Positions 1 to 29,773 of a stretch of DNA of 64,000 bases are shown piece after piece. Origin of the DNA: Verrucomicrobiota bacterium (GTDB taxonomy: Bacteria; Verrucomicrobiota; Verrucomicrobiia; Opitutales; UBA953); assembly GCA_016871415.1 (NCBI GenBank), contig VHDL01000006.1, positions 62,001 to 126,000 of the forward strand, in the 5' to 3' direction. The first letter of the stretch is position 1, and every line of letters begins with the position of its first letter. The notes below the pieces were generated by a model that was not told the DNA's origin, made no database searches, and worked only from the letters and a program-made list of their open reading frames with translations. A program made the position numbers and the translations under genes.

Positions 1-485
1 ACGGCTACGCGGGCCAGGCCGAAATCCAGATGCGCCGCAAAAAGTACAAGGAGGCGCTCGCGCTCTGCGACGAGGCCATCGAGGCCCGCGCGCTCATGTC
101 CAAGGAGCTCAACGTGATGTTCATCCGCGCCCAGTGCCTAGCCGAGACCCAGAAGTACGACGAGGCGAAGAAGGGCTTCGAGGAGATCGCCAAGACCAAG
201 GAATGGCGGGGCGACAAGACCGCGGGCTCCCTCTTCTGGCTGGGCATGATCGAGGAACGTCAGGGACGGCTCCCCGAGGCCCTCGCGTTCTACCGTCGCT
301 GCTACCAGGGCTGGAAACGTTACGAGAGCTGGTCCGCTAAGGGCTACCTCGGGGCGGCCAGAATGCTCGTGAAGCTCAACCAGCGCCCCGACGCCAAGGT
401 CCTGCTCACCGAGATGCTGTCCAAGGACCGCATCAAGGAAACGCCCGAGGCCGACGAGGCCAAGAAGCTCTCCCTCACCCTCTGA
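1..485 (+). CDS. TPR protein, C-terminal part (5' end outside window)
   Basis: The reading frame is open from the first bases of the window, so the start lies upstream; the first Met visible (position 30) is internal. The visible 160 or so residues are alpha-helical with TPR-like spacing (…YDEAKKGFEEIA…, …LPEALAFYRRCYQGW…). TPRs are protein-protein interaction scaffolds. The stop is 6 bases before the next TPR gene, and both precede exbB-exbD-exbD on the same strand. A TPR partner of an ExbB/ExbD motor is a plausible role by context only. No catalytic motif is visible. Confidence 0.7.
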   Translation, partial: GYAGQAEIQMRRKKYKEALALCDEAIEARALMSKELNVMFIRAQCLAETQKYDEAKKGFEEIAKTKEWRGDKTAGSLFWLGMIEERQGRLPEALAFYRRCYQGWKRYESWSAKGYLGAARMLVKLNQRPDAKVLLTEMLSKDRIKETPEADEAKKLSLTL

Positions 486-491
486 AACGCC

Positions 492-1508
492 ATGCGCACC
501 CTCCGTACCCTCCTACCCGCCGCGCTCCTCGCCGTCTCGGCCTCGGCCCAGACCTTCGTCATCCGCAATGAGCGGTGGGAGGTCAACGACCCCTTCAAGA
601 TGGACACCGCGTCCATGCCTCCGAAGCCGCTCGTCGACCCGAAGAAGGCCATCATCAACCAGGTCACCGGCTCTGTCCAGCGCACGGTCCTCCAGAGCGG
701 GATTGAAGTGACCAACACGCGCAAGCTCTCGGAGGTGACCCAGGTCATCTGGCCAGAGATGCCCCGGCTTACCGAGGCCCGCGCATTCGTCAACCGCGGC
801 GATCCCGCCAAGGCCCTCGACAACGTGGAGGCCGTGATTAAGCTATTCGAACCGCTGAAGAAGGTGCCAGGCAGCCTGTGGCTCGACGCAACGGTCATCA
901 AGCTCGACGCCCTCGACCGCCTCAACAACGACGCCGCCCTGGGAGGCTTCCTCGACACCCTCGAGAAGGATGAGGCCGCCTCACTGCCCGAGCTGGCCAC
1001 TAAGATCCAGCTCTCGCGCCTGCTCCAGCGCTCCCGCCGCGGGGACCACGAGTCGGTCATCCGCGAGACCGACGAACTGATCGGCAAGATGGACGACGCC
1101 GGGGTGCTCGCCCGCCTGCACATCGTCAAAGGCTCCTCCCTGCTCGCCACGCGCAAATACGAGGCGGCCATGAACGCCTACCTTCGCGTGCCGGTCTTCT
1201 ACGGCACGGAACAGGACCAAGTACCCAAGGCCCTGCTCGGGGCCGCCCAGGCCTTCCGCGGCATGGACGGACCCGCCGTCCGCGAGCAGAAGCTCGAAGA
1301 GACCTCCTTCCGCTACCTCCGCGACATCCTGGTCACCTACCCGGTCTCGAAGGAGGCCGAAGAAGCCCGCAAAATCCTGCCCAAGGAGGAGATTGCCAAG
1401 GCCGAGGCCGAGCAGAAGAAGCTCGCCACCGCCGGCCTGCTCCCCGACGGCGCAGCCATCAAGAAGGCCGCGGTGCGCCCCGAGGACGACCAGTCCGCGA
1501 ACCGCTAA
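492..1508 (+). CDS. Exported helical repeat (TPR-like) protein
   Basis: 338 residues. The N-terminus is a Sec signal peptide (MRTLRTLLPAALLAVSASAQ, cleavage likely after AQ), so the product is periplasmic. The mature part is helical and charged, with TPR-like segments such as …SVIRETDELIGKMDDAGVLARL… and …RKYEAAMNAYLRVPVFYG…, then a Lys/Glu-rich C-terminus. No enzyme motif is visible. It lies 6 bases after the upstream TPR gene and 59 bases before exbB, so it probably belongs with the ExbB-ExbD module as a periplasmic scaffold. The function is inferred from context. Confidence 0.7.
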   Translation: MRTLRTLLPAALLAVSASAQTFVIRNERWEVNDPFKMDTASMPPKPLVDPKKAIINQVTGSVQRTVLQSGIEVTNTRKLSEVTQVIWPEMPRLTEARAFVNRGDPAKALDNVEAVIKLFEPLKKVPGSLWLDATVIKLDALDRLNNDAALGGFLDTLEKDEAASLPELATKIQLSRLLQRSRRGDHESVIRETDELIGKMDDAGVLARLHIVKGSSLLATRKYEAAMNAYLRVPVFYGTEQDQVPKALLGAAQAFRGMDGPAVREQKLEETSFRYLRDILVTYPVSKEAEEARKILPKEEIAKAEAEQKKLATAGLLPDGAAIKKAAVRPEDDQSANR

Positions 1509-1514
1509 CAGTCC

Positions 1515-1543
1515 TTGCCCACCTCCCGAACCCCTCCTATACA
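1515..1543 (+). promoter_or_regulatory. Probable sigma-70 promoter of the exbB operon
   Basis: TTGCCC (1515-1520), a 17-base spacer and TATACA (1538-1543) lie in the 59-base gap before exbB. Each box matches four of six consensus bases. Predicted initiation near 1550 leaves a leader of about 18 bases without a purine-rich Shine-Dalgarno site. Confidence 0.45.
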
Positions 1544-1567
1544 AACCCGACATCCCACGTCCTAATC

Positions 1568-2377
1568 ATGAAGACGAACCTTCGCCCCCTCCTCTCCCCC
1601 GTGCTGGCGCTCGCGCTCCTGACCGCCTTCGCCGGCGCCCAGGAAGCCGCGCCGGCCGCAGCAGCCGCCGCGGTGCAAAAGAAGACCCTCATGGACCTGT
1701 TCCATGAAGGCGGTTGGGTCATGTACCCCATCGCCCTCGCCTCGGTCTTCATGATCTGGCTCATCGTGCAGGGCTTCATCAGCACCAGCCGCAAGCGCCT
1801 GCTGCCCGCCGACCACGTCACGCAGCTGCGCGAGCTCTTCAAGGCCGGCAACTACGTTGGCGCCTACGCCTTCGCCAAGTCCAACGCCTCTCCGATCTGC
1901 GACGTCGTGCGCGCCGGCGTGGCCCTCACCCCGGACGGAAAAACAATGACCGAGGAGTCCATCATCTCCGAAGTCACCCGCGTCCAGGGCGACCTGATGG
2001 GCAGCGCCTCCTACCTCTCCGTGATCGGGGTCTGCACCCCCATGATCGGCCTCACGGGCACGGTGACGGGCATGATGACCGCCTTCGAGACGCTCAGCTC
2101 CTCCGGCGTGGGCGACCCCTCGAAGCTCTCGGGCGCGATCGGCGAAGTGCTCGTGGCCACCGCCTCCGGCCTCTTTATCGCCATCCCGGCGTTCATCGCC
2201 TACTACCTGCTGCGTAACCGCATCACCATCGGCATCCACGACGTCCAGGAAGTGGTCGCCGGCCTGTTCCGCGCCTTCCCTTACAACGAGGTGGCCGGAC
2301 ACAAGATTGGTGACGAGGAGATCTACGCCGGTAAGCCCGACTGGAACTCGGCTTCAATCACCCAGCCCCAGGGCTGA
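1568..2377 (+). CDS. exbB: MotA/TolQ/ExbB proton channel family protein
   Basis: 269 residues. This is the proton-channel subunit of an ExbB-ExbD type inner-membrane motor. The first 25 residues look like a signal peptide (…LALALLTAFAGAQ), followed by an Ala-rich linker. A transmembrane helix follows at about 50-72 (VMYPIALASVFMIWLIVQGF). The family's paired helices lie at about 145-168 (…GLTGTVTGMMTAF) and 195-216 (…ATASGLFIAIPAFIAYYLL). The GLTGTVTGM and A-ATA-GLFIAIPA segments are hallmarks of the family. A cleavable-looking N-terminus is an addition relative to the E. coli protein. It is followed by two exbD genes. It could serve TonB-type transport, Tol-type envelope work or another transducer protein. 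Confidence 0.92.
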   Translation: MKTNLRPLLSPVLALALLTAFAGAQEAAPAAAAAAVQKKTLMDLFHEGGWVMYPIALASVFMIWLIVQGFISTSRKRLLPADHVTQLRELFKAGNYVGAYAFAKSNASPICDVVRAGVALTPDGKTMTEESIISEVTRVQGDLMGSASYLSVIGVCTPMIGLTGTVTGMMTAFETLSSSGVGDPSKLSGAIGEVLVATASGLFIAIPAFIAYYLLRNRITIGIHDVQEVVAGLFRAFPYNEVAGHKIGDEEIYAGKPDWNSASITQPQG

Positions 2378-2412
2378 TTGTCCACCCCTGAACCCCCGGG
2401 ACACCCAGCACC

Positions 2413-2853
2413 ATGGCAGGCGGAGGCGGAGGCGGAGACGGAGAGCCGGAATTCCAGGTCGCGCCGATGATCGACGTGCTCCTGGTACTCCTCATCTTCT
2501 TCATGTCGATCACGTCCTCGCAGGTGCTTAAGGTCGACAAGAACATCTCGCTCCCCGTGGCCAGCCACGGCGTAAAGCGTGACGACAAGGCGGCGGCTGG
2601 ACTGATCAACATCTCCTGGGACGCAACCACGGGACAGGCGAAGTACAAGCTGGACGACCGGGAGCTCGACCCGAACGACAAGGACGGTATCTCTAAGGAG
2701 CTGGAGCGCCGCAAGGGCGGCAACGAGAAGTTCCGCCTGCTCATCCGCGCCGACCGCAACTGCCACGCCAAGTACATCTCGAAGGCCCTCGAATGGGGAG
2801 CCGAGGCCGGCGTCGACAACATCGCCTTCTCCGGGCTAAACCGCGAGGAATGA
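2413..2853 (+). CDS. exbD: ExbD/TolR biopolymer transport protein (first copy)
   Basis: 146 residues, single-pass type. A Gly-rich cytoplasmic N-terminus ([10 protein letters not shown]) leads into the ExbD transmembrane helix (FQVAPMIDVLLVLLIFFMS). Asp21 in that helix is the conserved proton-relay aspartate of the family. The periplasmic part (about 45-146) includes …FRLLIRADRNCHAKYISKALEWG…, matching the ExbD/TolR periplasmic fold. It is 35 bases after exbB and 4 bases before the second exbD. Two different ExbD subunits in one operon suggest a hetero-oligomeric motor. Confidence 0.9.
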   Translation: MAGGGGGGDGEPEFQVAPMIDVLLVLLIFFMSITSSQVLKVDKNISLPVASHGVKRDDKAAAGLINISWDATTGQAKYKLDDRELDPNDKDGISKELERRKGGNEKFRLLIRADRNCHAKYISKALEWGAEAGVDNIAFSGLNREE

Positions 2854-2857
2854 GACC

Positions 2858-3301
2858 ATGAGACAGGCTAAGCAGGACGTCACGTCCGACGCAGGATTCC
2901 AGATCGCCCCGATGATCGACGTGGTCTTCGTGATTATGCTCTTCTTCATGGTCATGGCTGGAGCGGTCAAGGTGGAGCATGAGCTCAAGACGACGCTCCC
3001 CGGCAACGCCGAGACGGCCCAAGAGACGGAGCTGCCCGACGAGGTCACAATCGGCATCTCGGAAACAGGCGAGGTCACGCTCAACGAGGACCCGCTGGGC
3101 GCCCCCCTAGACCGGGCGCTCGAAGGTCTCTACTCCCAGATGGTCCAGATGCGCAAGGCGGCCGAACAGGCCAAGACGAAGATGCTCATCACGGTGCAGG
3201 CCGAGGAGGCCGCCCGCTACGAGCGCGTGATGAACGTGCTCGACGTGCTGGCCCGGGCGGAGATCACGAACGTCACGTTTGCGGTCTCCGAGACGGAGTG
3301 A
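2858..3301 (+). CDS. exbD: ExbD/TolR biopolymer transport protein (second copy)
   Basis: 147 residues. Like its neighbour it has the N-terminal FQIAPMIDVVFVIMLFFMVM helix with the conserved Asp21. Its periplasmic domain (about 45-147) differs clearly: it has a charged insert near …YSQMVQMRKAAEQAKTKMLITVQAEEAARYERVMNVLDVLARAEITNVTFAV. It is the last gene of the operon, 4 bases after the first exbD, and is followed by a strong terminator. The divergence of the two copies argues for subunit specialisation rather than recent duplication. Confidence 0.9.
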   Translation: MRQAKQDVTSDAGFQIAPMIDVVFVIMLFFMVMAGAVKVEHELKTTLPGNAETAQETELPDEVTIGISETGEVTLNEDPLGAPLDRALEGLYSQMVQMRKAAEQAKTKMLITVQAEEAARYERVMNVLDVLARAEITNVTFAVSETE

Positions 3302-19832: not shown

Positions 19833-20264
19833 TCAGACGCCGAATCGCTTCTGCAGCGCCTTCTTGATCTCAAGCGGGACGAGCGCGGCCGCCATGACGC
19901 CCTGCCCTTCCCGCCAGGCGTAGACGGTGATCAGGGATCCCTTGGCGACGGGTCGCCCTTCCACCGTGGCTTCGAACGACCAGGCGAGCCGCTTGTCGCC
20001 GATCTCGGCGGGGGCCAGCGAGACGGCAACGAGATCGCCCCGGTGGACGGGAGCGAGATAGTCGCACTCGACCCTCACCCGGGGGAAGCCTGACGTGCGC
20101 GCACCCTCCTGCCTGAGAAAGGGTATGCCTAGCTCACGGAAGAGGGCCTCCTCCGTGGCCTCGACCCAGAGGAACATCGTCGAAAAATGGACGATGCCTG
20201 CGGCATCCGTATCGGCGAACTGGGCGCGATGCTCGGCGAAGAACGGGGACATGCCCCCATCCAA
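19833..20264 (-). CDS. Acyl-CoA thioesterase, YbgC/4HBT family
   Basis: 143 residues, a single hotdog domain. The family signature FADTDAAGIVHFSTMFLWVEATEEAL (about 16-41) has the catalytic Asp and the following His of YbgC/FadM-like thioesterases. The domain continues through RVRVECDYLAPVHRGDLVAV to the end. Members hydrolyse acyl-CoA; YbgC in E. coli is associated with the Tol-Pal locus. Here the neighbour is a membrane glycosyltransferase-like gene. A start at 20252 (MSPFFAEHR…) is equally possible. Confidence 0.88.
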   Translation of the reverse strand: MDGGMSPFFAEHRAQFADTDAAGIVHFSTMFLWVEATEEALFRELGIPFLRQEGARTSGFPRVRVECDYLAPVHRGDLVAVSLAPAEIGDKRLAWSFEATVEGRPVAKGSLITVYAWREGQGVMAAALVPLEIKKALQKRFGV

Positions 20265-20297: not shown

Positions 20298-21362
20298 TCA
20301 GCGGGCCTTGCGCCGCAGCCAGCCGACCGCGACCGAGCCCCCGCCCGAGGCCTCCACGCAGCGCCGCAAAAGGTCCTGGGGCTCCCGTTGAAGGCTGAAG
20401 AGGTAGAGTCGGGGGCCTCGGCCGCGAGAGGCCCTCCCGAAGGCCTCCAGCCACGCCGACTGCCAGCGGTAGGAGGCGCGCACCTCGCCCTTCATGGGTG
20501 CATAGACGCTGTCGGAGTAGACCTGCCGCGGCCCCTTGGGCGTGCGATGATAGATGCGGACGCCGTCCTGGAAGTCGGAGAACACCACCAGGGCGTCATA
20601 GGGCTCGTGCAGCATGCGGTCGATCCAGGCGCCGAGGGAGCCCTTCTCGCAGGCGGGCCTCAGGGACAGGAATGCGGAGCGTCCGGCGGTGGTCAGCGTG
20701 GCGGGGTCGGTCATCGTCGGCTCCTCACGCAGCCGGGGCGGATCGCCGGTGAATCCGCGTCCGTGCACGATTCGGTCGTCGAGCCCGACGATGCGGGCGC
20801 CGTCGAACCGGAACACGTCGGCGTCGGGATACTGGGAACGGATCTCGGCCTCCACCCTCGGGAGATAGGGCCGCATCGAGCCGGAGCAGTCGAGGTAGAC
20901 CGCGACCTTGGTGGCCCGCATGCGCAGCCCCATCACCGACCTATACGCGCGCGCCGCCCCGACGCCCAACCCTGCGCCCACGCCGGCAGACGAGCCCGAT
21001 CCGAAGCCCTTGCCTCCCATCCGGCTTGAAAGCGGCGACCCCAAGGCGGACCCTTGCGCCGACGCCATGGGCGCGGGCGGAGGCAGCCTAACCCCGGCGG
21101 GTCTGCCCACGGCCGCGATGCGCTTGGGCAGCTTCTTCATCGGAAGCTTCTTCATCCTCTCGACCCGATGGAGGACGGCGGGCGCGACGCCTCCCCCGGG
21201 ACCGACGTAGGCGCTTGGCACGGGACGTCCTTGCTTGGCGGGTTCACGCACCACGATCCAGCAGGCGGCCAGGACGAGCAGCGCATGCAAGGACAGTGAG
21301 ACCAGCGCGCCGCGCCAGTCGCGTTCACGTCTTGCCCGCCGGAAGAGAAGGTCCGTCACCAT
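20298..21362 (-). CDS. VWA-domain protein with TonB/TolA-like membrane anchor (first paralogue)
   Basis: 354 residues from the ATG at 21360-21362. A basic N-terminus leads into one membrane helix, GALVSLSLHALLVLAACWIV. It contains Ser22-x3-His26, the motif of the TonB/TolA transmembrane segment. A periplasmic linker rich in Pro, Gly, Ser and Lys (about 40-145, with the repeat MKKLPMKKLPKR) follows. The VWA domain (about 150-345) has the DxSxS metal-site motif in VYLDCSGSM and a downstream VVFSDFQDG. The same architecture recurs in the protein at 22336-23619. No cognate TonB C-terminal domain is present. The function is unknown. Confidence 0.75.
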   Translation of the reverse strand: MVTDLLFRRARRERDWRGALVSLSLHALLVLAACWIVVREPAKQGRPVPSAYVGPGGGVAPAVLHRVERMKKLPMKKLPKRIAAVGRPAGVRLPPPAPMASAQGSALGSPLSSRMGGKGFGSGSSAGVGAGLGVGAARAYRSVMGLRMRATKVAVYLDCSGSMRPYLPRVEAEIRSQYPDADVFRFDGARIVGLDDRIVHGRGFTGDPPRLREEPTMTDPATLTTAGRSAFLSLRPACEKGSLGAWIDRMLHEPYDALVVFSDFQDGVRIYHRTPKGPRQVYSDSVYAPMKGEVRASYRWQSAWLEAFGRASRGRGPRLYLFSLQREPQDLLRRCVEASGGGSVAVGWLRRKAR

Positions 21363-21498
21363 CCGAAAAGCATCCCCACGGGGACGCCCGTCCCTCAACC
21401 GCAGTACCCTGGGTCGGACAGCTCCCGCCCGGATGAGGACTCCCCCTTGGCGGGACCTTTCAGATTGTGAACGCCTTCTCGGGCGACAGCCTGCCGTC

Positions 21499-22329
21499 AT
21501 GCGCCCCGCCCTGCTGCTCGCCGCCGTGCTGATGACGTCGCCCCTGCAGGCCGCGCCGTTCGAGGTCGAAGCCCGGACGAGGTCCAAGGATCTGAAGGAG
21601 GCGCCGTCGCTGCGCCGCGAGCCCATCGAGCCCGCCCGCACCGCCGCCATCGTCTGCGACATGTGGGACACGCACACCTGTCCTGCGGCCGCGGCGCGGG
21701 TGGCCGAGATGGCGCCACGCATGGAGGCCCTCCTCAGCGAACTCAGGAAACGCGGCGCGCTCATCATCCACTGTCCGAGCGACACCATGAAGTTCTACGA
21801 GGGCGCCCCAGGGCGGAAAATGGCCCAGGCGGCGCCTCAGGCTCCCACGAAGACGCCTTTGCAGCGATGGGTGCGACTGATGCCTGAGCGCGAGGGCGCG
21901 CTCCCCATCGACGACTCGGACGGAGGCTGCGACGGCCCGCAGACGTGGAAGCCCGGCGACCCCTATCCGTGGACGCGCCAGATTGCCACCCTGTCCATCC
22001 TACCTGGTGACGCCGTCACCGACAGCCGCGAAGCCTATGACCTGATGGTCGCGCAAGGAAGGGACACCGCCGTCATCATGGGCGTGCACCTGAACATGTG
22101 CGTGCTGGGACGGCCCTTCGGCATCCGTCAGCTCGTCTCCCAGGGCTTGCGCACCCTGCTCGTCCGGGACCTCACCGACACCATGTACAATCCCGAGCGC
22201 GCCCCCAAGGTGAGCCACTTCGAGGGCACGCGCCTCATGGTCGAGCACATCGAGCGCCACTGGTGCCCGACGATGACGAGCGCCGACGTCCTGGGCGGAA
22301 CGCCCTTCCGCTTCAGCGGAGACCGCTGA
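21499..22329 (+). CDS. Exported isochorismatase-like cysteine hydrolase
   Basis: 276 residues from the ATG at 21499, with a signal peptide (MRPALLLAAVLMTSPLQAAP). The isochorismatase fold shows the nucleophile-supporting Asp in AAIVCDMWDTHTC and the catalytic Cys201 in GVHLNMCVLGRPFGIRQL. The family includes nicotinamidases, ureidoacrylate hydrolases and other amidases; most are cytoplasmic, so export is unusual. It sits between two VWA genes on the opposite strand and ends 6 bases before the second one's stop. The substrate cannot be told. Confidence 0.82.
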   Translation: MRPALLLAAVLMTSPLQAAPFEVEARTRSKDLKEAPSLRREPIEPARTAAIVCDMWDTHTCPAAAARVAEMAPRMEALLSELRKRGALIIHCPSDTMKFYEGAPGRKMAQAAPQAPTKTPLQRWVRLMPEREGALPIDDSDGGCDGPQTWKPGDPYPWTRQIATLSILPGDAVTDSREAYDLMVAQGRDTAVIMGVHLNMCVLGRPFGIRQLVSQGLRTLLVRDLTDTMYNPERAPKVSHFEGTRLMVEHIERHWCPTMTSADVLGGTPFRFSGDR

Positions 22330-22335
22330 TGGCCG

Positions 22336-23619
22336 TCAGCGGACCGGCTTGACCGCACCTGCGCCCTGCGTGACGCCGGGCGCCTTGGAGTCACCCTTGC
22401 CGAGATTGGCGGGGTTGATCTTCGTGACCGCGCCGCCGGAGGCCGTGGCGAGGGAGGTCATGAACGCGCCGGGATTGTTGCGGGTCGTGAAGATGTAGAG
22501 CTTGGGCCCGTTGGCCTGGGGTGAGAACGACTTGATCCAATCCTGCTCCCATTCCTTCTCCTGCGGCTTACGATTGTCCACACCACGGCCGACCCCGTAG
22601 TTGTTGTCGTCGGAGAAAAGCACGAGGGGCGTGGCGGCGAAACCCTTCTCAGCCTTGACGCCCTTGACGCGGATCTGCGTCAGACCGTAGTCGGCGAAGT
22701 CGGTGAACACCACCAGCGCGTCGTAGGTCTTCTCCTCGCGCATGATGTCGAGCCAGGCGCCGAGACGGCCGGTCTTGAAGTGCTGGTCGTAGCGGGTGAG
22801 CAACGTGCGGCCCTTGCCGGAGAGCGACTTGGGCTCCGTGACCGGCTTGAGCGTCTTGCCGTCGGGCCGCTTGGTGTTGGTGTTCACGCCGCGGGCGACG
22901 CGGACCTTGCCCTTCATGAAGTCCTTGCCGCCCACGACGTCGCCGTCCTGGATCGTGATGGCCGGCTGCTCGTAGACGAATACGTCCGCGTCTTGGAAGG
23001 CGTTCTTGATCTCGGACTGCACCGCGTCGAGGTAGTCGATGAGCGAGTCGGACGAGTCGAAGTAGACCGCGATGCTCTGGGCGAAGACCTGCGCGCCCAT
23101 CATCGGCTTGGCCACGAAGTTCTTGCCGCCGCCGACGCCCATGCCGCGTCCAGCGCCGATGCCGCCGCCGGATCCGCCGCCGAAACCCTTGGAGGAACCG
23201 CCGCCCATCATGCCCGAGATCATCGAGGACATGGAGGCCGCCGGAGGAAGGTCGGGAAGGGCGATGGAGGACGTGGAGCTCTTGGACGTGATGCGGGCTG
23301 TGGTCTTGGCCATGTTCTTCACGTTCTTGGGCTGCACCTTGCGCGGCTGGTTGTTGACCCGCTCACCCCCGCTGCCGCCGCCGGCTCCGGTGGCGAACGT
23401 GTTGGGGTCCTTCTTGGCCTGCGTGGTGATTTCCGAGACCACCCAGGCGGCGGCGAGAAGGACGAGCAGGGCGTGAATCGCCAGGGAGACCGTCAGACCT
23501 TCGCCGCCGAGACGGCGCCAGAAGGAGCCGCGCGGACGCACCATGACGACGGACTGATTCTTGGCGGAGGGCGCCTCAGGGGCGTCGCCGGAAGGGGGCG
23601 GGGGCGGGGTCTCGCTCAT
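22336..23619 (-). CDS. VWA-domain protein with TonB/TolA-like membrane anchor (second paralogue)
   Basis: 427 residues. A Pro-rich cytoplasmic N-terminus (about 1-40) precedes the membrane helix GLTVSLAIHALLVLLAAAWVV, with Ser45-x3-His49 as in TonB/TolA. The periplasmic linker (about 65-180) is rich in Gly, Ser and Lys, with several GGGSGGG-like tracts. The VWA domain (about 185-400) has the DxSxS metal-site motif in VYFDSSDSL and a downstream VVFTDFADYG. Shared blocks with the first paralogue (DADVFV/DADVFR, LGAWLD/LGAWID, YDALVVF, GPKLYIF/GPRLYLF) show common descent. No function is established. Confidence 0.78.
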   Translation of the reverse strand: MSETPPPPPSGDAPEAPSAKNQSVVMVRPRGSFWRRLGGEGLTVSLAIHALLVLLAAAWVVSEITTQAKKDPNTFATGAGGGSGGERVNNQPRKVQPKNVKNMAKTTARITSKSSTSSIALPDLPPAASMSSMISGMMGGGSSKGFGGGSGGGIGAGRGMGVGGGKNFVAKPMMGAQVFAQSIAVYFDSSDSLIDYLDAVQSEIKNAFQDADVFVYEQPAITIQDGDVVGGKDFMKGKVRVARGVNTNTKRPDGKTLKPVTEPKSLSGKGRTLLTRYDQHFKTGRLGAWLDIMREEKTYDALVVFTDFADYGLTQIRVKGVKAEKGFAATPLVLFSDDNNYGVGRGVDNRKPQEKEWEQDWIKSFSPQANGPKLYIFTTRNNPGAFMTSLATASGGAVTKINPANLGKGDSKAPGVTQGAGAVKPVR

Positions 23620-23746: not shown

Positions 23747-23824
23747 TGCAGGGTGGAGCAGCCCGGTTAGCTCGTCAGGCTCATAACCTGAAGGTCGTAG
23801 GTTCAAATCCTACCCCTGCACCCA
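23747..23824 (+). tRNA. tRNA-Met (CAT), probably initiator
   Basis: A complete cloverleaf with encoded CCA. The acceptor stem is TGCAGGG/CCCTGCA, the D arm GAGC…GCTC, the anticodon arm TCAGG-CTCATAA-CCTGA, and the T arm GTAGG-TTCAAAT-CCTAC. The D arm and the GGTGGAGCAG…AGCTCGTC context resemble bacterial initiator tRNAs rather than elongator Met or Ile2. The anticodon stem has A-G-G/C-C-T rather than the three consecutive G-C pairs usual in initiators, and position 1-72 is a U-A pair. Confidence 0.9.
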
Positions 23825-24030: not shown

Positions 24031-25278
24031 TCAGCCTCCGCCGGTCATCTTGGTGATGAGCGCGATGAGCGGCAGAAACATGGCGAGCACAATCGTGCCG
24101 ACCACGACGGCCAGGAAGACGATGAGGACCGGTTCGATGATCGAGGTGAGCGCGCTGACCGCGTTGTCCACTTCCTCGTCATAGATGTCCGCGACGCGGT
24201 TGAGCATCTCGGGTAGCTGGCCAGTCTCCTCGCCCACCTGGATCATGGAGGTGACCATCTGGGGGAAGACGCCCGTCTGCTCGAGGGGGACGGAGAGCGG
24301 TTCGCCGTCGCGGACGCGGTCATGCACACGCTCGAGCGACTTCGCGATCACGACGTTGTCCAGCGTATCACGGGTGATGGAGATGGACTGCAGGATCGGG
24401 ACGCCGGAGGCCATCAGGGTGCCAAAGGTGCGGGCGAAGCGCGACACCGAGACAATCTGCACGAACGTGCCGACTTTAGGCAGACGGAAGATCATGCGGT
24501 CGAACAGCGCCTTGCCCTTGGGCGTGGCCAGCCAGTACTTGAGGCCGAACCAGAGGCCGGCCACCACCACCGGTGTCACGAACCAGAACTCTGTGAGCGC
24601 CTTGGAGATGCCCACGACGAGCTCGGTGAGGGGCGGCATCTGGGTCTTCTGGCCGTCGAGCAACTTCTGGAAGGAAGGCACGACCTTCACCATCAGGACG
24701 TAAACGATGATGATGGCCACGGAGAGGACGACACCCGGGTAGACCATGGCGGACTTGACCTTCTTCTGGATGCGGGAGGCCTTCTCACGGAACCTCGCCA
24801 GACGGTCGAGGACCTTGTCCAGCACGCCGCCGGCCTCGCCCGCTCGGATCATGTTGACGAAGAGCTTGTCGAAGACTTTGGGGTGCGACTGGAGCGCATC
24901 GGACAGGTTGTTGCCCTGGGCCACGCTTTCAGCTACATTCGTGAGGATGTCCTTGAAGGCGAGGTTGCGCTCCTGCTTGACGATGAGCTCGAGCGCCCGG
25001 AGCAGCGGCAGTCCCGCGGTGATCAGGGTCGCCAGCTGGCGGGTCATCACGGTGACGTCATCCTGGGTGACCTTGGCCCGTAAGCCGAAGGCGCCCTTCT
25101 TAGCACGGGGCGCCGGTGCGGCGGCGGGCGACTTGGAACCCGCCCCGGCCGCGAAACCTGTGACCATCAGGCCCCGGGCCATGAGATTCTTGCGGGCCTG
25201 CGCCTCGTCGGCGGCGGCGATGGAACCGGAGGTCTGGGCGCCGGTCTTGTCGATGGCGGTGTACTTGTAGTCGGGCAT
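24031..25278 (-). CDS. Type II secretion / type IV pilus inner-membrane platform protein (GspF/PilC family)
   Basis: 415 residues. Two repeated GspF domains (about 75-200 and 280-405) each carry the family pattern: …VTVMTRQLATLITAGLPLLRALELI… and …RFARTFGTLMASGVPILQSISIT…. Three membrane helices include VYPGVVLSVAIIIVYVLMVKVV and a C-terminal IEPVLIVFLAVVVGTIVLAM. It is the last gene of the ATPase cluster, 19 bases after the second pilB-type gene, and is followed by a strong terminator. It links the cytoplasmic ATPases to the pilus or pseudopilus. Confidence 0.93.
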   Translation of the reverse strand: MPDYKYTAIDKTGAQTSGSIAAADEAQARKNLMARGLMVTGFAAGAGSKSPAAAPAPRAKKGAFGLRAKVTQDDVTVMTRQLATLITAGLPLLRALELIVKQERNLAFKDILTNVAESVAQGNNLSDALQSHPKVFDKLFVNMIRAGEAGGVLDKVLDRLARFREKASRIQKKVKSAMVYPGVVLSVAIIIVYVLMVKVVPSFQKLLDGQKTQMPPLTELVVGISKALTEFWFVTPVVVAGLWFGLKYWLATPKGKALFDRMIFRLPKVGTFVQIVSVSRFARTFGTLMASGVPILQSISITRDTLDNVVIAKSLERVHDRVRDGEPLSVPLEQTGVFPQMVTSMIQVGEETGQLPEMLNRVADIYDEEVDNAVSALTSIIEPVLIVFLAVVVGTIVLAMFLPLIALITKMTGGG

Positions 25279-25297
25279 GGTGTTTCGGTGAAGGGGT

Positions 25298-26977
25298 TCA
25301 GGTGTACTTGAGGACTTCCTCGATCGTGGTCAGGCCGTCGAAGATGCATCGCAGGCCGTCCTCCCGGAGCGGGCGCATGCCGGACTCGATCGACTTCTGC
25401 TTGAGCACTAGAGTCGGGGCCTTCTGGGTGATGAGGGTGCGGATGCCGTCGTTAATGGGCATCAGTTCGAAGAGGCCTTGGCGGCCCTTGTAGCCGGAGC
25501 GGTTGCACTCGGGGCAGCCCTTGCCGAAGAAGAACTGCTTGCTCGCGATCTCCAGCGCGTCGACCTCGAGCATGGAGACCACGTCCTTATCGGGCTCGTA
25601 TGCGGTCTTGCAGGAGCGGCAGACGCGGCGCAGGAGGCGCTGGGCGAGGACGCCTTCCAAGGAGGCGGAGATGAGGAACGGCTCCAGCCCCATGTCGATG
25701 AGTCGGGTGACGGCGCCGGGGGCGTCGTTGGTGTGGAGCGTGGAGAGCACCACGTGGCCGGTGAGGGAGGCCTGGACGGAGATCTGCGCGGTCTCCAAGT
25801 CGCGGATCTCCCCGACCATGATCGTGTCCGGATCCTGTCGGAGGAAGGCGCGGAGGGCGGCCGCGAAGGTCAGGCCCACCTGATGGTTGATCGGCACCTG
25901 CATGATGCCCTCGACCTCGTACTCGACCGGGTCCTCGGCGGTGAGGATCTTGATGTCCTCAGTGTTCACCTCCCGAAGGGCGGAGTACAGCGTGGTGGTC
26001 TTGCCGGATCCGGTCGGGCCGGTCACGATAAAGATCCCGTTGGGCCGGTTCACCATGGTGCGGATGCCTTCCTTGATATCATCCTGCATCGAGAGTGCGT
26101 CTAGGCTCAGGTTGACGACCGACTTGTCGAGGATTCGGAGCACGACGGACTCGCCGAACTGGGTCGGCAGGGTCGAGACGCGGAGGTCGATAGCCCGGCC
26201 TCCGATTGTGGTCTTGATGCGGCCGTCCTGAGGCACGCGGCGCTCGGCGATGTTGAGGGCGGAGAGCACCTTGACGCGGGCGATGACGGCCGGGGCGAGA
26301 TTCTTCGGCGGAGGCGCCATCTCGTAGAGCGAACCGTCGATGCGGTAGCGGATGCGGAACTGGTCCTCGAAGGGCTCGAAGTGGATGTCGGAGGCCTTGG
26401 CCTTGACGGCCTCCTGCAGGACGAGGTCGACGAAGCGGATGATCGGCGCCTGGCTGGCGGCGGCGGCGACGTCCTCGTCGGTCTTGACGGCCTCGGCCTG
26501 GTCGAACTCGCCGAGGAGGTCCTCCATCGAGGAGGCCGAGGGTTCGCCGTAGGCACGGATGACGGCGGAGTCGACCTGGTCGGGGTCGGCCACGGCGAAC
26601 TCGACGTCACGCTGCAGGATGAACGTCAGTTCGCCAACCGCGGCGGAATTGAAGGGGTCCTTGGCGACCATGATGACCTTGCCGGCCTCGTCCGACACGG
26701 GCACGACGAGGTACTTGTGGGCCTGAGCGGGCTTGAGGAGCCGCAGGATCTCCGAGCCGGCGTCGACAGGGACGGCCGAATAGAACTGGACCTGAAGATG
26801 GTCGGCCACGGCCTGGAGCAGGGCCGGCCGGTCGACGAGGCCCGCGTCCAGGAGGGCGGCGGTGAAGGACTTGCCGGTGGCGGAATGGGACTCCCAGAGC
26901 TCGTCGGCCTGAGGGGCGTCGACGAGGCCGGCCTGAAGGGCGATTTCGCGGATGGTGTCGCTGTGGTCGTCGAACAT
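25298..26977 (-). CDS. GspE/PilB-type assembly ATPase (second in operon)
   Basis: 559 residues. An N-terminal MshEN-like domain (about 1-150) is followed by the secretion ATPase core. Walker A is [16 protein letters not shown], the Asp box is [10 protein letters not shown], Walker B is [13 protein letters not shown], and the His box is [15 protein letters not shown] tetracysteine zinc motif (CRSC…CPEC) identifies the assembly (PilB/GspE) rather than the retraction class. It is separated from pilT by 5 bases. A second PilB-type ATPase is encoded upstream in the same operon. Confidence 0.93.
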
Positions 26978-26982
26978 GGATG

Positions 26983-28053
26983 TCAGGAAGCGGTGGACGA
27001 TCGCAGGCGGGCCCTCACGGCCTCGGAATCCTGGCAGTAATTCAAGACTTCGGCCTCGGGGATGACGCCCTGCGCGTGCAGCGCGAGGAGGTCGGCGTCG
27101 AGCGAACGCATGCCGCGCACGGCGCCGGTCTCGATGTCGGAGGCGATCTGGAAGGTCTTCTTGTCACGTATCTTGGCGGCGACGCCCAAGGTGTTGACGA
27201 GGATCTCGAAGGCGGCGATTCGCGAGTCATCCTTGGTGTGCAGGAGGCTCTGGGAGATGACCATGCAGAGCGATGAGGCGAGCTGCACCTGCACCTGGTC
27301 GCGGCTGCCCGTGGGGAAGGCATCGACGATGCGTTCGATGGTGCGGGCGGCGCCAGACGTGTGCAGGGTGCCGAGGACGAGGTGTCCGGTCTCGGCCGCG
27401 GTGAGCGCCGCCTCGATGGTCTCCAGGTCCCGCAACTCCCCGATGAGGATGACGTCGGGATCCTGACGGAGGGCGGCGCGCACGCCCTCGGCAAACGAGA
27501 GCACGTCGGTACCGACCTCGCGCTGGGTGACGGTGCACTTCTTGTGCGGGTGGACGTACTCGATGGGATCCTCGAGGGTGATGATGTGCCCTTCCTCGTT
27601 CTGGTTGATCCAATCAATCATCGACGCAAGGGTCGTCGTCTTGCCGGAGCCTGTCGGGCCGGTCACGAGCACGAGGCCGCGCGCACGACGGAGCTGGTCC
27701 TTGATCACGCCGGGCAGCCGCAGCTGCTCTAGGGTGAACATGCTCGTGGGGAGCAGGCGCAGGACCAGCCCGGTCTCGCCGCCAGCGCGGAAGACGTTGC
27801 AGCGCAGGCGGCCCTTCTTCTTGAAAGCGAAGGCGAAGTCGCAGCCGCCCTCCTTGGCCAGCCGATCGCGCAGGTGCCGGGGGACGATTTTCACCGCCAG
27901 CGCCTCGGTGTGCGCCGCGGACAACGGAGGACCGTCGAGCGACACGATGGAGCCGTTGATGCGGAGGGAGGGAGGACGGCCGACGTGCAGGTGGAGGTCG
28001 GACGCCCCGTTCTCGATCATTGCTTCCAGCAGCTGGTCCAAATCGTAGCCCAT
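26983..28053 (-). CDS. pilT: PilT-type retraction ATPase
   Basis: 356 residues from the ATG at 28051-28053 ([22 protein letters not shown]), 4 bases after the upstream ATPase gene. Walker A is [15 protein letters not shown], the Asp box is [12 protein letters not shown], Walker B is [13 protein letters not shown], and the His box is [14 protein letters not shown]. There is no zinc motif, as expected for PilT/PilU. The C-terminal AIRNLIRE motif, needed for retraction in PilT, is poorly conserved and reads [11 protein letters not shown], so it may be PilU-like or a specialised paralogue. Confidence 0.88.
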
Positions 28054-28057
28054 GGGC

Positions 28058-29773
28058 TCAGAGGACGTCGTCCGCGACGGTGGCGCCCACAATCTCCTCG
28101 ACGGTGGTCATGCCGGAGAGGATCTTGCGGAGGCCGTCCTCACGCATGGTGCGCATGCCGGCCTCGCGCGCCTTGCGGCGCAGTTCGACGAGGGTGGAGC
28201 CGGCGTAGATCATCTCCTGGACCTCCGCGGTGACGACGAAGAGCTCGAAGACGCCGCGGCGGCCCTTGTACCCGCGGTCGCCGCACTTGGCGCAGCCGGC
28301 GCCCTTCATGGGCGTCGCCGCGGCGAGGTCCTTCTCACTCAGGCCCACGGACATGAGCTCCTTGGAGGTCGGGGCGTAGGGCTGGGCGCAGGCCTGGCAG
28401 ACGCGGCGCACGAGCCGCTGCGCGAGGGCTCCGCGAAGCGCGGCCGAGACGAGGAAGGGCTTCACGCCGATGTCCACGAGACGGGTGACCGAGGAGACGG
28501 AGTCGTTGGTGTGAAGGGTCGAGAACACCATGTGGCCGGTGAGGGCGGCGTTGATAGCAATCTCGGCGGTCTCAAGGTCGCGGATTTCCCCGATCATCAC
28601 GACGTTGGGCGCCTGACGCAGCATGGCGCGCAGGGCCGCGGCGAAGGTCATGCCGACGTCGCGCTTCACCTGCACCTGGTTGATGCCGACCATCTGGTAC
28701 TCGACGGGATCCTCGACGGTGATAATCTTACGGTCCGGCTTGTTGATGTAGTTGAGGGCGGAGTAGAGGGTGGTCGACTTGCCAGAGCCGGTCGGGCCGG
28801 TCACCAGAAAGACGCCGTCCGAGCCGCCGATGAGGGACTGGAACTTGGCCTGGTCGTCCGCGAAGAAGCCGAGCTCGGGCAGGCCGAGCTTGAGGCCCTC
28901 CTTGTCGAGGATTCGCATGACGATGGACTCGCCGTAGACAGTGGGGAGGACGGAGACGCGGAGGTCGATGTCGCGCCCGCCGGTGCGGGCCTGGATGCGT
29001 CCGTCCTGCGGGATGCGCTTCTCCGCGAGCGAGACGTCCGCCATGAGCTTGAGCCGGGAGATGACGGAGGGCTGCAGGCGCTTGGGCGGGCCCTTCATCT
29101 CCTGGAGCACGCCGTCTATGCGGAAGCGCACGCGGAAGCGCTTCTCGAGCGGCTCGAGGTGGATGTCCGAGGCCTTGCGGCGGATAGCGTCGACGATGAG
29201 GGAGTTGACGTAACGGATGATTGGCGCATCGTCCTCCTTGACCTCGCCGCCCTGCGGCAGCTCGACAGAGACGCCGTCCTCGGACTTGCCGAAGACCTGA
29301 TCATAGGCGACGTTGACCTGGCCGCCGCCGTAGCAGCGGTCGATTGCGGAACGGAGCTCATCCGGCGGCGCGAGCTTGGGGTGCAGGGGCACCTTGAGGA
29401 TGCGGGACAGGGAGTCGAGGGTCTCGGTGTCGAGCGGATCCGCGATGGCCACGAGCAGCTCGACTCCGTCCATCTGGAGAGGGAGGATGCAGTGGCGCTC
29501 GGCCTGCTCGCGACCGACGAGCTTGAGGAGCTCATCGGTGGGAGCGACCTGGGAGACGTCCACGACCTCCATGTCGAACTCAGCGCCGAGGGCCGAGGTG
29601 ACGGCCTGCCAGGTGAGCTTCTTCTCGGCCACGAGATGCTCCAGGGCGGCGGTGTCCGGATTCTGACCCTCCTTGAGGTCGCCCAATGCGGCACGGGTGG
29701 CGGCGACGTCATCAGGAGAGACGAGCGCCTTGTCCTGGATGAATTGGATGACAAAATCGTCGGCGGACGTCAC
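28058..29773 (-). CDS. GspE/PilB-type assembly ATPase (first in operon)
   Basis: 571 residues from a GTG start. MshEN domain at about 1-150, then Walker [17 protein letters not shown], Asp box IITVEDPVEYQ, Walker [14 protein letters not shown], His box GHMVFSTLHTND and a CxxC…CxxC zinc motif (CQAC…CAKC). It is clearly different from the second copy, so this is not a recent duplication. The 114-base leader region upstream (29774-29887) is AT-richer than its surroundings and must hold the operon promoter; TTGCCG with AACTTA 17 bases on (minus strand) is a weak candidate. Confidence 0.92.
   Translation of the reverse strand: MTSADDFVIQFIQDKALVSPDDVAATRAALGDLKEGQNPDTAALEHLVAEKKLTWQAVTSALGAEFDMEVVDVSQVAPTDELLKLVGREQAERHCILPLQMDGVELLVAIADPLDTETLDSLSRILKVPLHPKLAPPDELRSAIDRCYGGGQVNVAYDQVFGKSEDGVSVELPQGGEVKEDDAPIIRYVNSLIVDAIRRKASDIHLEPLEKRFRVRFRIDGVLQEMKGPPKRLQPSVISRLKLMADVSLAEKRIPQDGRIQARTGGRDIDLRVSVLPTVYGESIVMRILDKEGLKLGLPELGFFADDQAKFQSLIGGSDGVFLVTGPTGSGKSTTLYSALNYINKPDRKIITVEDPVEYQMVGINQVQVKRDVGMTFAAALRAMLRQAPNVVMIGEIRDLETAEIAINAALTGHMVFSTLHTNDSVSSVTRLVDIGVKPFLVSAALRGALAQRLVRRVCQACAQPYAPTSKELMSVGLSEKDLAAATPMKGAGCAKCGDRGYKGRRGVFELFVVTAEVQEMIYAGSTLVELRRKAREAGMRTMREDGLRKILSGMTTVEEIVGATVADDVL

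Follow-up and report, generated by a model that had tools for sequence, protein, structure and literature searches.

Two anchored VWA proteins and an ExbB-type motor in one window

The window analysed here is a 64,000-nucleotide stretch of a Verrucomicrobiota genome (GenBank assembly GCA_016871415.1, contig VHDL01000006.1, positions 62,001 to 126,000). It encodes two paralogous proteins, VWA-A and VWA-B, each with an N-terminal membrane helix of the kind found in TonB and TolA and a VWA domain at the other end. VWA-A (20298..21362, minus strand; 354 residues) consists of a helix carrying S22-x3-H26, a short Gly/Pro/Lys linker and the VWA domain. VWA-B (22336..23619, minus strand; 427 residues) has a cytoplasmic tail in front of its S45-x3-H49 helix, followed by a disordered Gly/Ser/Lys linker of about 100 residues and the VWA domain. 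In the established Ton and Tol systems an ExbB-type motor is used to pull on the outer membrane, and an earlier note on this DNA had proposed that the two proteins are effectors of such a motor. Its description of the genes was correct as to the coordinates, the single helix and Gly-rich linker, the Ser22/His26 and Ser45/His49 pairs, and the DxSxS motif, which reads DCSGS and DSSDS in the two proteins. The longest open reading frame of VWA-A starts at 21788 and would overlap an isochorismatase-like gene on the opposite strand; the ATG at 21362 was taken instead.

The exbB-exbD-exbD operon that the note had placed in the same window is also present. An ExbB/TolQ-like motor subunit (1568..2377, plus strand; MotA_ExbB, E=8.6e-24) is followed by two ExbD/TolR-like subunits (2413..2853 and 2858..3301, plus strand; ExbD matches with E of 2e-15 and 1.5e-21), which show the conserved proton-site Asp in PMIDVLL and the proton-site Asp in PMIDVVF, respectively. 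A gene for a tetratricopeptide repeat (TPR) protein stands in front of exbB (492..1508, plus strand) and completes a TPR-exbB-exbD-exbD set at 492-3301. This set is preceded by a second, long TPR gene, whose 3' end occupies 1..485 (plus strand) and which starts upstream of the window (G000:C6:58949-62485, an open frame of about 1178 residues); in relatives this long TPR gene is CpoB/YbgF-like. At its N-terminus (1568-1680) ExbB has a segment resembling a signal peptide and then an Ala-rich extension ahead of the first membrane helix, an arrangement that recalls long ExbBs (PMC9008036). All 37 genomes of the genus carry the VWA family, and an orthologue of this ExbB (E<=1e-30) was found in 35 of them.

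The Ser/His face of the membrane helix is conserved

The earlier note had named orthologues lacking the Ser or the His as the observation that would speak for an ordinary membrane anchor. Within the family none was found: S45 and H49 (VWA-B numbering) are fully invariant among 38 VWA homologues whose mean column identity is 31%, and the motif is therefore not a matter of chance. The SLSLH codons of VWA-A, from Ser22 to His26 (21285..21299, minus strand), are likewise kept in orthologues. Comparison of 124 distinct helix segments showed constraint, counted from the His, at -4 (Ser in 109), +3 (Leu in 109), +7 (Ala in 105) and +11 (Val in 100), and the positions lying between them varied, which leaves a conserved helix face at -4, 0, +3, +7 and +11. 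In Escherichia coli TonB, the motif residues are S16, H20, L27 and S31. The conserved -4, 0, +7 and +11 positions match the spacing of this motif, named SHLS in TonB and TolA (PMC12204202), so the same face of the helix is conserved as in those two proteins.

The frequency of S-x3-H outside the family was estimated from 353 fetched proteins that have a hydrophobic N-terminal segment and had been put down as non-family. Eight of them had the motif; five proved to be truncated or missed copies of the VWA family and one was TolA/TonB-like, which leaves two and puts the background without family members at about 0.6%. Published vWA transducers have a predicted beta-strand, the "motor box", after the helix (PMC12204202). 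At this place the window's family has a conserved H/RKVQPKN-type segment, which aligns with LEHxV of the operon-linked members described below; no strand is predicted there in our AlphaFold2 model.

A VWA fold in place of the TonB C-terminal domain

The C-terminal domain of neither VWA-A nor VWA-B matched any Pfam or NCBIfam model when both proteins were scanned, and sequence-profile searches of the PDB returned only glycine linkers and unrelated proteins. VWA-B was modelled with AlphaFold2 using 38 homologues. The model contains one helix at residues 39-67 (23419..23505, minus strand), which includes Ser45 and His49 and reaches a predicted local distance difference test (pLDDT) score of about 88-94 in its core; most of residues 74-166 fall below pLDDT 50, a disordered linker as in published vWA transducers; and residues from about 170 to 405 form a confident alpha/beta domain, mostly above pLDDT 90. 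The best structural matches of the model were mainly VWA domains (Rpn10, TFIIH p34/p44, Sec23/24, TEM8, VWF A1 and integrin beta), with modest scores (Foldseek E of about 1e-3, VIA Z up to 7.5) that were consistent in the family they indicate. Alignment and model together place the domain, with its metal-ion-dependent adhesion site (MIDAS)-type residues, at 22405..23112 (minus strand): D188, S190 and S192 of VWA-B are invariant among the 38 VWA homologues, and so is the D307/D310 loop. The model thus supports a VWA fold for the end domain of VWA-B. With no TonB_C or TolA C-terminal match at E<=1, the replacement of the TonB C-terminal domain by VWA, as the earlier note had it, is borne out.

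Homologous transducers lie directly behind the motor genes in other families

We searched for orthologues of the window ExbB throughout the phylum and fetched the surrounding loci. The downstream gene was picked by its position (0.8-1.4 kb downstream, after two exbD genes) and its hydrophobicity, not by the motif. A gene for an N-terminally membrane-anchored protein lay behind the two exbD genes in 38 of 59 loci, which come from about 20 other families. The orthologues sit in TPR-TPR-exbB-exbD-exbD operons followed by an S/T/A-x3-H anchored protein, most often one with a VWA domain. When tandem second copies are counted, there are 42 such proteins, drawn from about 20 family-level groups. The motif position is occupied by His in 41 of them and by Tyr in one, L244; the residue at -4 is Ser in 33, Thr in four and Ala in four. 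A count of 42/42 was dropped, as it came from segments that had been anchored on a His and were in part mis-anchored (L244 and L208).

Profile comparison of the window's family with the operon-linked VWA transducers gave an hhalign probability of 99.2 (E=3e-19) over an alignment that runs from the helix and linker to the start of the VWA domain. The link of the window proteins to the motor comes from outside their own family. In the window's family the transducer genes left the ancestral motor operon, which now lies about 20 kb away, and multiplied. By architecture and homology the window proteins can be assigned to the published vWA-transducer kind, the homology being to transducers with the published gene order.

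The same anchor carries other end domains

The genome encodes a third protein (G000:C7, L035:3792-5069) with the anchor and linker of VWA-B and a PA14-like end domain. Its identity to VWA-B is 57% along 160 aligned residues (13-177), beyond which there is no clear similarity (local scores 458 vs 34). The end domain scored 17.1 bits against Pfam PA14, below the 24-bit cut-off, as do most members of the family; it aligns over its full length with PA14 members that are linked to motor operons. An AlphaFold2 model of the PA14-like domain from two sequences had a mean pLDDT of 32 and was not used. Several PA14-like copies occur in relatives.

PA14 transducers were also found inside motor operons, at L169 (34.7 bits) and L208 (24.7 bits, against the cut-off of 24), and those at L219 and L278 are assigned to this type by their resemblance to L169 and L208. 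At L208:7229-10241, VWA and PA14 transducers stand in tandem behind exbB, each with a cytoplasmic SAM domain; the two agree at 126 consecutive residues, all identical, that span helix and linker (the DNA is 95% identical), and diverge completely after them, a pattern suggestive of either gene conversion or strong selection acting on the anchor. Other operon-linked anchored proteins end in a squalene-cyclase-like alpha/alpha toroid (L209:5479-7314; SQHop_cyclase_C, 35.7 bits) or in DUF4159 (L210:4653-5999 and L244:2386-3957). Judged from these sequences, the anchor and its linker are a mobile module joined to different end domains.

Neighbourhood of the VWA genes

A pilB-pilT-pilB-pilC cluster (24031-29773) lies directly upstream of VWA-B and is conserved in the genus; where genus-level loci extend far enough, VWA-B nearly always comes directly after pilC. 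These pil neighbours are missing in several other genera of the window's bacterial family, and members of the VWA family occur there in unrelated contexts (L102-L127). A tRNA-Met gene (23747-23824, plus strand) stands between pilC and VWA-B, and the isochorismatase-like gene (21235-22329, opposite strand to the VWA genes) between VWA-B and VWA-A. The next gene after VWA-A encodes a 4HBT thioesterase (19833..20264, minus strand) and is conserved in most relatives.

In most relatives the two VWA genes are direct neighbours or have nothing but a further VWA gene between them. In several of them the intervening gene encodes a secreted VWA protein without a membrane anchor (L041:8253-9011 and its equivalents), which could be a partner or a competitor of the anchored forms.

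The distance from exbB to VWA-B, on opposite strands, is 19-21 kb in the 15 genus genomes that have both on one contig. We set this spacing aside as evidence of linkage, because it reflects synteny within one genus only.

Discussion

The earlier note had presented a motor-driven VWA protein as a new use of the Ton/Tol motor. That claim must be withdrawn, since the same architecture and gene order were proposed in 2025 by Williams-Jones et al., who predicted vWA force transducers in the Planctomycetes-Verrucomicrobia-Chlamydiae (PVC) group with a Ser/His helix, motor docking and the gene order TPR-tolQ-two different tolR-vWA, the vWA gene being described as "often" downstream of TPR-tolQ-tolR-tolR (PMC12204202). 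Their Tichowtungia-type family (Fig. 4a,b) shares with the window proteins the single Ser/His helix, the disordered linker of about 100 residues, the vWA C-terminal domain and its occurrence in Verrucomicrobia, and its gene set has the order that we observed for homologues of the window proteins in other families. Unlike that type, the window transducers are duplicated and lie some 20 kb from the motor operon, and the window family has Ala and Val for the Leu and Ser of SHLS. We also found PA14-like domains on a window-type anchor; PA14 is not mentioned in the text of PMC12204202. Searches of the open-access literature turned up this paper as the only directly relevant one on PA14 or VWA with ExbB/TolQ, and no account of PA14 or toroid transducers, an absence that is no proof of novelty. 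The basic idea is thus already published; its operon-detached, multiplied and domain-swapped form is apparently new, as are apparently the PA14-like (with the tandem VWA/PA14 pair among them), operon-linked alpha/alpha-toroid and DUF4159 versions of the anchor.

The likeness to TonB and TolA comprises the N-terminal Ser-x3-His helix with its -4/0/+7/+11 face, the flexible linker, the globular periplasmic domain and the ExbB-ExbD motor. In contrast to both, the window proteins end in VWA, do not keep the Leu and Ser of SHLS and go with two heterologous ExbD genes. A second published family, the transpore-helix vWA proteins (PMC12204202, Fig. 4c,d), also pairs a membrane-tethered VWA with a TolQ-like motor. 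It has a proton-site Asp in the helix, no SHLS and no ExbD; the window proteins are the opposite in each respect, with S-x3-H and no Asp in the helix and two exbD genes in the homologous motor operon.

We consider it probable, with good confidence, that VWA-A and VWA-B, anchored in the inner membrane, act as force transducers in the manner of TonB and TolA and are most likely served by the motor at 492-3301. With its Ser/His face, the single N-terminal helix would dock against the side of the ExbB pentamer, whose proton flux would be gated by the ExbD dimer, and the TPR-exbB-exbD-exbD set would be the most likely source of this motor. Its cycling would pull or turn the Gly-rich linker, and the periplasmic VWA domain, binding a ligand through its metal-ion (MIDAS) face, would exert a mechanical effect on a partner located at the peptidoglycan or the outer membrane. 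The cellular role may be macromolecule uptake or envelope maintenance. On the scale of the family, the transducer genes would have moved out of the ancestral motor operon and multiplied. Taken from sequence comparison, the mechanistic reading of a motor-coupled VWA protein is well supported.

Several observations weigh against this interpretation. Across 79 loci of the window's own family, no VWA or PA14 transducer had an exbB or exbD gene within 10 kb, and a claim of operon linkage can therefore not be made for the window itself. Besides the window's ExbB, four more homologues are encoded in the genome (five MotA_ExbB matches in all), and, with the motor genes distant as well, it is orthology that pairs the transducers with the 1568-3301 motor. 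In place of the SHLS Leu and Ser, +7 is Ala in 105 of 124 segments and +11 is Val in 100 of 124; full SHLS is not required for membership among the vWA transducers, because "many" of them, not all, are said to carry it (PMC12204202). Residues 1-59 and 1-82 matched no Pfam model at all, those of the TonB and TolA N-termini included; helices as short as these rarely score. Finally, VWA-A and VWA-B lie beside the conserved pilB-pilT-pilB-pilC cluster, which offers them another role. Of the earlier note's proposal, the coupling itself gains from the conservation of the motif and the operon linkage in related families, and loses by the distance of about 20 kb between the VWA genes and the motor operon.

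The same facts leave some room, which we judge to be small, for Ser/His transducers powered by another ExbB motor, such as the TolQ-type set (G000:C1) or the TonB-linked exbB (G000:C5). The five MotA_ExbB matches and the position of the transducer genes outside the 1568-3301 operon would fit such an arrangement, and TonB is able to work with the TolA motor and TolA with that of TonB (PMC12204202); against it, orthologues of the 1568-3301 type, the only ExbB type surveyed, have homologous transducers immediately downstream. An association with the neighbouring type IV pilus/type II secretion genes is improbable. The VWA proteins would then be membrane-anchored parts of that system, with a role like that of the VWA-bearing PilY1, and Ser/His would be only a helix-packing motif. 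In its favour, VWA-B directly follows the pilB-pilT-pilB-pilC cluster in nearly all loci of the genus that extend far enough. We gave this association less weight because other genera of the family lack pil genes at their VWA loci; PA14-type members with the same anchor lie elsewhere, the exbB-exbD-exbD operon itself encodes homologues in other families, and a packing motif leaves a near-invariant His across about 20 families unexplained. Ordinary signal-anchored VWA proteins of the BatA or YfbK type, with no motor coupling, are hardly credible given the invariant Ser/His face, the operon linkage and an S-x3-H background near 0.6%, even if VWA proteins are common in the genome and some relatives have an unanchored secreted VWA gene beside these (L041:8253-9011).

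A hint at what motor-coupled transducers of this type may do comes from the TPR gene in front of exbB, a distant match to the Mul1B family (21.6 bits against a cut-off of 75), which is named in NCBIfam for mucin-utilisation locus 1 of Akkermansia. An Akkermansia-like genome has the gene order exbB-exbD-exbD-TPR-Mul1B, and all five weak Mul1B matches outside one Akkermansia-like genus lie beside an exbB of the window type. In contrast to the operons described above, no anchored VWA or PA14 transducer was seen in the Akkermansia-like Mul1B cluster, and the TPR homology is weak (about 20-30 bits). The function of Mul1 in Akkermansia rests on the NCBIfam naming; a review (PMC12418764) does not name Mul1. 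The mucin use for which Mul1B is named makes the uptake of large glycans a sensible hypothesis, and the link suggests where to look for function. The CpoB/YbgF-like nature of the operon's long TPR gene in relatives is a second lead.

So far, vWA transducers have been a 2025 prediction without a phenotype (PMC12204202), and the present results provide independent, position-selected genomic support for it. The occurrence of one anchor on several end domains suggests an interchangeable set of motor-driven tools. We see about even chances that a single type of exbB-exbD-exbD motor in Verrucomicrobiota drives interchangeable VWA, PA14-like, alpha/alpha-toroid and DUF4159 effectors through one Ser/His anchor-linker module; the Ton/Tol motor would thus be a general power source for several mechanical tasks at the cell envelope, possibly including the capture and uptake of large glycans.

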